64,000 nucleotides of DNA from positions 310,001-374,000 of the forward strand of contig NZ_JAAFYS010000002.1 in NCBI RefSeq assembly GCF_012070395.1, written 5' to 3'. Shown piece after piece: positions 3,513 to 9,832 of this stretch (position 1 is the stretch's first letter; every line of letters begins with the position of its first letter). The translations under genes and the position numbers were made by a program. The DNA comes from Pseudoroseicyclus tamaricis (GTDB taxonomy: Bacteria > Pseudomonadota > Alphaproteobacteria > Rhodobacterales > Rhodobacteraceae). The notes beneath the pieces were generated by a model, which did no database searches, had not been told where the DNA came from, and worked only from the letters and a program-made list of their open reading frames with translations.

Positions 3513-8139
<4,627 letters not shown>

Positions 8140-8166
8140 CGGTTCTGTGCCTCTTTGTTCTCCGAT

Positions 8167-8181
8167 GTTCTCACAAAGTTC
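8167..8181 (+). promoter_or_regulatory. LexA-type SOS box 1 (GTTC-N7-GTTC)
   Basis: Exact GTTC, seven bases, GTTC. This is the SOS operator established for alphaproteobacteria such as Rhodobacter sphaeroides and Caulobacter. A third GTTC half-site lies at 8157-8160, six bases upstream. It starts 28 bp after recG ends and 74 bp before the start of the small gene at 8241. Confidence 0.75.
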
Positions 8182-8193
8182 TTTACAGAATCA

Positions 8194-8208
8194 GAACAAT
8201 GTGAGAAC
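8194..8208 (+). promoter_or_regulatory. LexA-type SOS box 2 (GAAC-N7-GAAC)
   Basis: Exact GAAC, seven bases, GAAC, the same operator read in the other orientation, 33 bp before the ATG at 8241. A -35-like TTTACA (8182-8187) lies between the two boxes, so a repressor on either would block a promoter here. Confidence 0.78.
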
Positions 8209-8240
8209 AAGTTTCCAGCAAGGGGTTGGGAGAGCCGAAG

Positions 8241-8360
8241 ATGGCACAGCGCGTGAAGCAGATGATCACCCGTGCGGAGCAGAGCTGGCTCGGCGACGCG
8301 GTCGGGGCACTCGGTCTTTTCGCGCTGCTGTTCGCGGCACTCTTCCTCTCCGGCACCTGA
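8241..8360 (+). CDS. 39-residue single-pass membrane protein, probably SOS-induced
   Basis: The frame ATG (8241) to TGA (8358-8360) encodes 39 residues: a basic N-terminal amphipathic part (MAQRVKQMITRAEQSW) followed by a ~20-residue hydrophobic helix (roughly 17-37), predicted N-in. GGGAGA precedes the ATG at good spacing. Two perfect LexA-type boxes lie in its promoter region and a strong terminator follows, so it is an independent, damage-controlled transcription unit after recG. Small LexA-controlled inner-membrane proteins that inhibit division are known (SidA in Caulobacter, 29 residues); similarity here is in size, topology and regulation, not in recognised sequence. Function is inferred only. 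Confidence 0.7.
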   Translation: MAQRVKQMITRAEQSWLGDAVGALGLFALLFAALFLSGT

Positions 8361-8485
8361 GTTTTCTGCCTGGCGAGTCTCGCAGGAAGACCTGGATCCA
8401 AGCGGCGCACTGCCTTGCGCCGCGCCTGAAGCTGCCTCTTCGGGTCCTGTCCCCCGGGTCTTTCGTCCCCACGAGATCGCTGCCT

Positions 8486-8523
8486 GCCGCCGCCGCCCCC
8501 TGCCCGGGCGGCGGCGGTTTTTT
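8486..8523 (+). terminator. Rho-independent terminator
   Basis: A CCGCCGCCGCC arm (8487-8497) pairs with GGCGGCGGCGG ending at 8517, followed by six Ts (8518-8523). It ends the transcript of the 39-residue protein about 125 bases after its stop. Confidence 0.85.
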
Positions 8524-8560
8524 CATCCGCCGGGGCCCGATCCCCCGGATCCCTCTTCAT

Positions 8561-8603
8561 CTGGCCAAAAATACCCTCGGGGGTGTGGGGGCAGCGCCCC
8601 CAC
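8561..8603. repeat. Dispersed intergenic hairpin element, copy B
   Basis: CTGGCC, an A-run, CCCTCGGGGG, then a perfect 8-bp stem GTGGGGGC (8585-8592) / GCCCCCAC (8596-8603) with loop AGC. It lies just downstream of the convergent MFS gene, and its layout parallels the element at 901-943. Confidence 0.5.
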
Positions 8604-8629
8604 GCGAGGCCGGAAACCCCGCGCCCCCG

Positions 8630-9832
8630 TCAGAGCTTCTGCGCGATCCCCCGCGCCAGCACCGCCAGCACCAGCACGCCCAGTCCCAGCGGCACCGGTG
8701 TGCCGTTGAAGGCCAGCCCGATCGGCCCGGCGATCAGCGTCGCCGCCACCGTGCCGAAGGCGGTGATCATCGAGGCCGCCATGCCGGCGACATGGCCGAG
8801 CGGCTGCAGCGCAAGCGCGTTGAGGTTGCCCATGCAGAGCCCCATCTGGAAGAAGATGGAGATCAGCCAGAGGTAGAAGAGCGGGAAGTGCCAGCTTTCC
8901 GGCGCCCAGAGCCAGCCCGCCAGCATCAGCGCCACCAGCCCGATCTGCGCCCACATCATGCCGCGTACCACGTTGCCCATGCCGACGCGCCCGACGATCC
9001 GGGCGTTCAGCGGCCCGCCCATGGAGGCGATTACCGCCACGCCGCCGAACCAGAGCGGAAAGCTCTCGCCGAGGCCGAAGGAGGCCTCGAAGAGCTGCTG
9101 GATGGAGGAGAGCGTGGCGAAGAGCATCGCGAAGATCAGCGCCTGCAGCGCGGTGGAGCGGCGGGCGAGTGGCTCGCGCACCACTTCGAGGAAGGCGGTC
9201 TTCAGCGGTGTGAAGCGCAGCTCCCGCCGGCGGTCCGCGGGGAGCGTCTCCTCGAGGCGGCTGACCATCCATATCGTGGTGGCCAGCGAGAAGATCGCGA
9301 GGAAGGCGAAGATGCCGCGCCAGTCGGCGAGGAAGAGGATGCCGGTGCCGAGGAGCGGCGCCAGCGCGGTGAGCAGCGCGAAGATCATCATCACGAAGGA
9401 GAGGAGGCGCGCCATCTCGTTCCCCTCGAAGCGGTCACGCACGCAGGCCAGCGCGATGACGCGGGGCGCCGCGGCGCCGAGGCCCTGCAGCACGCGCGCC
9501 GCCAGCATCCAGCCCAGCGAGTGGGACATGGTGGAGAGGAAGGCGCCGGCGAGGTAGAGCCCGGCGCCGATCAGCATCGCCGGCTTGCGGCCGATGGAAT
9601 CGGAGAGCGGGCCGGCGAAGAAGGTGCCGAGCCCCATGCCGAAGAGGAAGAAGGTGACGATCAGCTGCGCCTTGTTCGGCTCGCCGGGCGACAGCGTCTC
9701 TGCGATGTAGGGCAGGGCGGGCAGCATCGAATCGACCGACAGGGCGACGGTCGCCGTCAGCGCCGCCATCAGCGCGATGAACTCGAAGCGGCCCATGCCG
9801 GTGCGCCGGGCGACGGATGCCTCGGAGGTCAC
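8630..9832 (-). CDS. Bcr/CflA-type multidrug efflux MFS transporter
   Basis: A 400-residue, about 12-helix membrane protein. The loop 2-3 motif GPLSDSIGRKPAMLIG, the early DSMLPALPYIAETL segment and VLQGLGAAAPRVIALACVRD are characteristic of the Bcr/CflA drug-resistance branch, which uses proton antiport to export compounds such as bicyclomycin or chloramphenicol. The most plausible start is GTG at 9832, overlapping the stop of the upstream DsbA-like gene as GTGA; a longer frame reaching ATG at 10039 would run through that gene and is rejected. Substrate is unknown. Confidence 0.85.
   Translation of the reverse strand: MTSEASVARRTGMGRFEFIALMAALTATVALSVDSMLPALPYIAETLSPGEPNKAQLIVTFFLFGMGLGTFFAGPLSDSIGRKPAMLIGAGLYLAGAFLSTMSHSLGWMLAARVLQGLGAAAPRVIALACVRDRFEGNEMARLLSFVMMIFALLTALAPLLGTGILFLADWRGIFAFLAIFSLATTIWMVSRLEETLPADRRRELRFTPLKTAFLEVVREPLARRSTALQALIFAMLFATLSSIQQLFEASFGLGESFPLWFGGVAVIASMGGPLNARIVGRVGMGNVVRGMMWAQIGLVALMLAGWLWAPESWHFPLFYLWLISIFFQMGLCMGNLNALALQPLGHVAGMAASMITAFGTVAATLIAGPIGLAFNGTPVPLGLGVLVLAVLARGIAQKL

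Follow-up and report, generated by a model that had tools for sequence, protein, structure and literature searches.

The Rhodobacteraceae are a major marine family, and in the literature searched, we found no answer to how their cells stop dividing during the SOS response. A very short frame behind recG in Pseudoroseicyclus tamaricis bears on this question. An earlier note on this DNA had read it as a damage-induced membrane microprotein under two perfect SOS boxes. We analyzed what the locus encodes, how widely it is conserved, and on what its products may act, starting from the window (the whole 64 kb stretch of DNA analyzed) and extending the comparison to related genomes.

Layout of the locus

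Both boxes, the extra GTTC, TTTACA, GGGAGA, the 39-codon frame, and the terminator listed in the earlier note were present exactly where it had placed them, and their positions are collected in Table 1. The note was right to read the locus as a coding frame; it stopped at the stop codon, and the conserved structured RNA at 8361–8524 was missed. The microprotein frame and this RNA are predicted to form a single transcript, with the RNA ending at the terminator.

Table 1. Features of the module behind recG in P. tamaricis, in window coordinates.
Feature	Position	Strand	Basis or remark
recG	5992–8139	+	ORF of 715 aa; module 3′ of recG in 111/113 loci (tblastn against loci)
Extra GTTC half-site	8157–8160	+	Six bases 5′ of main box; kept in 95/111
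Main LexA-type box, GTTC-N7-GTTC	8167–8181	+	Exact in 111/113 loci and 79/79 named loci
TTTACA, putative −35-like element	8182–8187	+	Directly 3′ of box; column conservation 0.76–1.00 at +15 to +20
Second box, inverted (GAAC-N7-GAAC)	8194–8208	−	Half-site GAAC 8205–8208 kept in 101/111; perfect box in 2/111
GGGAGA, likely ribosome-binding site	8228–8233	+	Sequence
Single-helix membrane microprotein (predicted), 39 residues, including stop	8241–8360	+	Family in 266/296 genomes; dN/dS 0.24; helix model
Conserved structured RNA (predicted), stop codon to terminator end	8361–8524	+	cmsearch match 8362–8524; covariation; fold
UCUGCCUG	8365–8372	+	Perfect 8-base complement of CAGGCAGA just 5′ of own ftsZ start; duplex −15.2 kcal/mol
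Hairpin loop, exactly CUGCCU	8410–8415	+	Fold of 8361–8530
Second hairpin loop, exactly CUGCCU	8432–8437	+	Fold of 8361–8530
Unpaired CUGUCCC, junction of hairpins and closing stem	8447–8453	+	Fold of 8361–8530
Another CUGCCU copy, between closing stem and terminator	8480–8485	+	Fold of 8361–8530
Intrinsic terminator	8486–8524	+	Hairpin about 8486–8518, T run to 8524; loop has CUGCCC 8500–8505 (fold)

Distribution and coding evidence of the microprotein

A search with the single sequence found relatives in 7 of 60 other genomes. A profile built from eight members matched 257 of 296 Rhodobacteraceae genomes (one genome per genus), and a refined profile of 70 members, taken from the proteins of 113 loci, matched 266 of the 296. 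With about nine of every ten Rhodobacteraceae genera covered, the module offers a concrete candidate for how division is arrested in this family, and some genomes without a profile match have, by eye, a divergent version of it. In a class-wide sample of 289 genomes, a profile search gave only five good matches, all of them family members. Two other matches, with E values of 0.007 and 0.0095, lay inside frames of 547 and 770 residues, respectively, and look like chance matches; no credible match outside the Rhodobacteraceae was found in these 289 genomes.

The 113 distinct loci, from which L013–L016 were left out as duplicates, shared one reading frame with an ATG start in every case and a length of 36–45 codons (median 40). 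recG was located 5′ of the frame in 111 of them and was not found at L020 and L108. The named set consisted of 80 loci from Ruegeria, Phaeobacter, Leisingera, Sulfitobacter, Roseobacter, Rhodovulum, and others; one had no ATG where it was expected and was left out, and the remaining 79 all showed both the box and recG. At L138, the whole module (box, peptide, and RNA) is situated away from recG, which indicates that the module can move as a unit.

The median dN/dS was 0.24 (914 of 2211 pairs), a sign of purifying selection on the peptide, and on this value the reading as a chance frame was rejected. The comparative data thus identify the locus as a real, conserved protein-coding microgene, in agreement with the earlier note. 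The single hydrophobic helix also held across the family: the best 17-residue hydropathy had a median of 2.32 for peptides of 36–45 aa, and the predicted peptide model showed one helix over residues 2–38 (mean pLDDT 83, pTM 0.42). Pfam and NCBIfam gave no match over the cut-off for the eight members scanned (best E values 0.12 and 0.064), which bears out the note's remark that such a gene is easily missed.

Size, single helix, and SOS-type operator resemble those described for TisB and DinQ, and the peptide could accordingly be read as a membrane toxin of that type, lowering membrane potential and leading to dormancy, with the RNA regulating its synthesis. About 90% of genera keep the module in the same position beside recG, and the pairing test of the 3′ RNA with its own start, described below, gave no signal. 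Most type I toxin genes are not known to be conserved in this way. We therefore regard the toxin reading as very improbable.

Operator and expected LexA control

An exact GTTC-N7-GTTC box was observed within 160 nt upstream of the frame in 111 of the 113 distinct loci, with a box-to-ATG distance of 66–110 nt (median 78) in these 111; no exact box was found at L083 and L096. A lack of conservation of frame or box in related genomes had been named beforehand as a finding that would refute the microprotein claim, and both were conserved, the frame in 266 of 296 genomes and the box in 111 of 113 loci. Only two exact boxes occur in the window, both at the microgene locus. The whole genome has 50 exact sites compared with 25 for the pattern read backwards, so a single site alone would be weak evidence, and it is the conservation that makes the evidence strong. 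The same genome gave one LexA match and one RecA match, each with an exact box just upstream.

The claim of two perfect SOS boxes was correct for P. tamaricis, where both are exact, and did not extend to the family. The GAAC half-site lies exactly 38 nt after the box start in 101 of 111 loci and within +34 to +46 in 110 of 111, and just 2 of 111 have a perfect second box at that position. Such a box thus marks only the P. tamaricis lineage and one other, and two perfect boxes were rejected as a conserved design. Judged from the aligned promoters, the family-wide design is one box with an extra GTTC six bases upstream (95 of 111) and an inverted GAAC half-site downstream. Alignment on the box gave the promoter consensus TTTGTTC-N6-GTTCTCAAAAAGTTCTTTACA-N12-ATATGAGAACAAA, well above background.

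A Caulobacter study describes GTTC-N7-GTTC as the operator there and a single box in about 97% of SOS promoters (PMC12700426); against this figure, conserved half-sites beyond the box are out of the ordinary. Across the family, three GTTC half-sites and one inverted GAAC half-site are kept, an arrangement which hints at two or more LexA dimers or at another regulator besides LexA. The microgene is very probably LexA-controlled, and LexA binding and induction by damage are what this operator predicts.

Structured RNA after the stop codon

The stretch from the stop codon to the terminator was conserved among relatives. Ten loci fitted the seed pattern, and nine of them, all relatives with the P. 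tamaricis sequence excluded, were used for a covariance model, which matched the window at 8362–8524 with an E value of 4e-8 (cmsearch). Among 100 sources, nine of them used for the model, 96 had the RNA 3′ of the frame; the misses were L018, L055, L096, and L105. It was also found in 78 of the 80 named loci, where the two misses are cut short by contig ends within about 100 nt of the frame, and 12 out of another 13 loci had it as well. In a whole-genome scan, 47 of 61 genomes matched at E ≤ 1, with strong matches at the recG-module locus and weak extras elsewhere. One genome (G089, L134–L135) showed a second, weak match of the model at C13 (E 1.5e-5), 3′ of an unrelated coding frame, which is probably a terminator-like chance match.

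The model-fitted alignment (A3), which leans towards the model and includes two spurious rows (window 58170 and the second L056 match), gave a covariation of 0.368 compared with 0.121 for shuffled and 0.031–0.054 for slid controls. In the same alignment, 93.9% of cells were paired compared with 76.4% after shuffling, and 30 of 34 pairs had changed on both sides. An alignment based on sequence only, made from 38 of the 80 named loci and scored on its own consensus structure, gave 0.150 compared with 0.105 (shuffled) and 0.025–0.068 (slid), a calculation from which seven of the predicted pairs were left out, namely those of two small hairpins and one in the terminator. The folding z-score, for which no alignment was used, was −2.66 (n = 99) compared with −0.52 for recG coding sequence (n = 104). 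Taken together, these values make a conserved structured RNA almost certain.

The best Rfam match for positions 8100–8700 of the window was sX13, at 19.6 bits where the cut-off is 50 (E 0.21). For 12 relatives, Ysr141 reached an E value of 3.5e-6, yet only 35 bits against a cut-off of 196. Membership in a known RNA family was rejected on these scores, the Ysr141 matches being taken as compositional. In the scans made here, the peptide family is thus in neither Pfam nor NCBIfam, and the RNA family is not in Rfam.

The RNA might act in cis only, as a 3′ UTR that stabilizes the message or tunes its translation, leaving the peptide as sole effector and a SidA-like division inhibitor. The joint occurrence of RNA and peptide and the strong purifying selection on the peptide would fit such a role. 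Against it, the RNA paired no better with its own 5′ region than with swapped partners (own pairing lower in 43 of 99), a result on which control of its own 5′ UTR was rejected, and a plain terminator or stabilizer would need no repeated unpaired motifs. We consider action in cis only unlikely.

Repeated CUGCCU and CUGUCC motifs

The motif analysis covered 105 RNAs, i.e., the 113 loci minus six in which no terminator was found and two without an early TGCC. CTGTCC occurred 146 times against 9.1 expected from dinucleotide shuffles and CTGCCT 170 times against 12.0, an enrichment of about 15-fold and about 14-fold, respectively. They were the two most enriched hexamers, followed by terminator words. 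Both were largely unpaired, with mean unpaired probabilities of 0.70 for CTGTCC and 0.81 for CTGCCT compared with 0.405 overall. At least one CTGYCY was present in 103 of the 105 RNAs and three or more in 80, and the median number of near-identical unpaired copies per RNA was four. The P. tamaricis RNA contains six CTGYCY copies, two of which are the exact six-base loops of two hairpins.

The ftsZ ribosome-binding site as candidate target

We examined ftsZ because the known RNAs DinR and DicF made it the obvious gene. In the family, the ftsZ start region reads (A)CAGGCGGA a few bases 5′ of the ATG, and CUGCCUG can form a seven-base duplex with CAGGCGG that includes one G-U. In P. tamaricis, the ftsZ site CAGGCAGA is the perfect complement of the segment listed in Table 1; six of the eight bases of this seed are unpaired at a probability of at least 0.37, and the last base at 0.11.

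In 54 of 62 family genomes (28/30, 25/31, and 1/1, the last being L267), CAGGC[AG]G was present no more than 22 nt upstream of the ftsZ start. It was found at the ftsZ start in none of 28 genomes of other alphaproteobacterial families and in none of the five family genomes where no module was found, and also at none of the starts of 45 window genes and 113 microgenes. The starts of the window genes and of ftsZ were picked by simple rules, and that of ftsZ in G017 is doubtful. The co-occurrence of module and ftsZ site gave a Fisher p of 9e-6, with genomes treated as independent, which they are not. The negatives comprised three genomes with the module (G004, G068, and G073) and five in which neither protein nor RNA was found (G014, G017, G028, G077, and G082).

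At the ftsZ start, G073 has GAGGCGG and G068 has CAGGTGG in place of CAGGCGG. In G073, the RNA (L121) presents a UUUGCCUCC loop fitting the changed site, and loop and site may thus have co-varied.

Duplexes between the loops and the ftsZ start were on average stronger than shuffled ones (mean z −1.03, n = 36 genomes), compared with a mean z of 0.05 (n = 24) for duplexes with the microgene's own start. Individually, 9 of 36 ftsZ duplexes reached p ≤ 0.05, and the P. tamaricis pair had p 0.265. Single pairings were short, with 7–8 base pairs and usually one G-U, and by our reading of the duplex list, the best duplex lay away from the AGGC[AG]G site in 11 of 36. CUGUCC has its complement, GGACAG, at the start of ftsZ in no more than 20 of 61 genomes. 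As CAGGCGGA doubles as a ribosome-binding site, C-rich loops would favor it in any case. On balance, we see an even chance that ftsZ is a real target of the RNA.

The RNA might instead regulate in trans with ftsZ not as its chief target, either as a broad C-rich antisense RNA acting on many G-rich ribosome-binding sites or as a CUGYCY sponge for an RNA-binding protein, in the way that CsrB presents repeated motifs to CsrA. A multivalent binder would fit the many near-identical unpaired copies (median four per RNA), and sX13, the best though not significant Rfam match, is a small RNA with C-rich loops. The ftsZ site was specific among the starts examined, being absent from all 45 window genes and 113 microgene starts. 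CAGGCGGACAG lies shortly before an ATG in 112 of 199 genomes; 10 of the 29 places read were ftsZ, and no other clear gene start recurred among these 29. We hold this broader role possible, though doubtful, next to direct control of ftsZ. As a separate observation, the 19-mer CAGGCGGACAGAGTTGATG recurs in at least six genomes (G203, G010, G217, G176, G132, and G026), and at L353, the sole copy read, there is no clear gene start.

Genomes without the module

Nineteen genomes without a protein match were searched for recG, and in 14 of them, the DNA downstream of recG was read. A clear divergent module was observed 3′ of recG in six (G004, G022, G081, G114, G120, and G145), three were ambiguous (G111, G171, and G180), and in five (G017, G077, G128, G175, and G201), no module was seen 3′ of recG. 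For G014, G028, G082, G116, and G167, no full recG match was read. Since the module can also lie elsewhere than behind recG, as at L138 in G033, "none" here means none found.

In G014, G028, and G082, there was no full-length recG match, and the module was not found there either; the only matches of the recG search in these genomes had a size and score that would fit Mfd. Absence of the module in these three genomes rests on searches that missed the divergent module in G004.

In a tree of FtsZ, which is poorly resolved because of few columns, four of the five module-less genomes lay outside the supported clade to which most genomes of the family belong, and G028 fell inside it. The correlation between module and ftsZ site therefore rests on about two events. 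One shared ancestry could yield both traits, and the individual duplexes are short, so the ftsZ match may be a coincidence of a lineage-specific ribosome-binding site, with the module serving some other purpose in DNA repair beside recG. Two of the most enriched motifs, however, fit the same short ftsZ stretch, and G028, module-less inside the main clade, has also lost the ftsZ motif. Coincidence is in our judgment a real possibility and not a probable one, on a par with the broader trans-acting role.

Proposed mechanism

Our preferred reading is that the locus produces one transcript under LexA control that acts in two ways, its RNA repressing translation of ftsZ and its peptide acting in the membrane; we give this mechanism as a whole a probability of about 0.5. 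LexA bound to the conserved operator would silence the promoter, and cleavage of LexA triggered by RecA on DNA damage would release one short transcript with two products. For this half, the comparative evidence is strong: the conservation, the purifying selection, and the operator were all observed by computation, while LexA binding and induction are predicted.

The first product would be the one-helix membrane peptide of about 40 residues, which would enter the inner membrane and may act on the divisome as SidA does in Caulobacter, a target suggested solely by that analogy. The second would be the 3′ structured RNA, made up of a closing stem, about three hairpins, and the terminator, presumably processed from the message or stable within it. 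Its structure and its repeated unpaired motifs were computed directly, and the single-stranded CUGCCU and CUGUCC copies that it presents would pair with the unusual ftsZ ribosome-binding site (A)CAGGCGGA and block ftsZ translation, so that division would stop until repair is done. The evidence for the ftsZ step is moderate; the co-occurrence of module and site was observed, and repression is what the complementarity suggests. The structured RNA may be the main effector of the locus.

We tentatively propose a stronger form, somewhat less probable than the mechanism itself. One LexA-controlled transcript would lock division twice, with the multi-loop RNA cutting the supply of FtsZ through its several copies of one short pairing motif and the peptide holding the divisome. 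Most Rhodobacteraceae would then use it as their native SOS division checkpoint, and the ftsZ site would be kept complementary to the RNA across the family.

Comparison with known systems

No earlier report of the peptide family, the RNA family, their LexA-type union behind recG, or the ftsZ complementarity was found in the main text of the open-licence papers searched. Passages of PMC6473078, PMC5107571, PMC4809877, PMC2864571, PMC8632094, and PMC9426580 that were searched likewise gave none; the numbered intergenic sRNAs of PMC5107571 might include the RNA. The kinds of element involved are already known, namely SOS division inhibitors (SidA), ftsZ-repressing RNAs from 3′ ends (DinR), and operons of a protein with an RNA (DicB/DicF).

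SidA of Caulobacter crescentus is a LexA-controlled inner-membrane microprotein of 29 aa (PMC4211646). The Rhodobacteraceae peptide resembles it in its very small size, one predicted membrane helix, and the GTTC-N7-GTTC operator. It differs in having about 40 aa, a position behind recG, and a structured RNA in the same predicted transcript. Pos19 of Rhodobacter sphaeroides is a short coding small RNA in the same bacterial family, but it is controlled by RpoE and belongs to oxidative stress (PMC5036791).

In the Qin prophage of E. coli, one operon yields DicB, a small division-inhibiting protein, and DicF, an RNA that represses ftsZ (PMC10448788). A small protein and an RNA are likewise predicted to come from one unit here, with proposed roles in division and at ftsZ. 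In contrast, DicB and DicF are prophage-borne and repressed by DicA instead of LexA, and no sequence relation is expected.

DinR is the 3′ part of the LexA-controlled short dinI mRNA and represses ftsZ translation at the ribosome-binding site (PMC10907235). The module described here similarly has its putative regulatory RNA in the 3′ part of a short mRNA under a LexA-type operator, ending at the terminator, and the same action on ftsZ is proposed. Unlike dinI, which encodes a RecA-modulating protein, the Rhodobacteraceae frame encodes a predicted membrane peptide, and its RNA is long, structured, multi-loop, and conserved family-wide. If the ftsZ link is true, RNA control of ftsZ in the SOS response arose independently in distant bacteria, and in the Rhodobacteraceae, it took a form that can be read from sequence as repeated loops facing a conserved ribosome-binding site.
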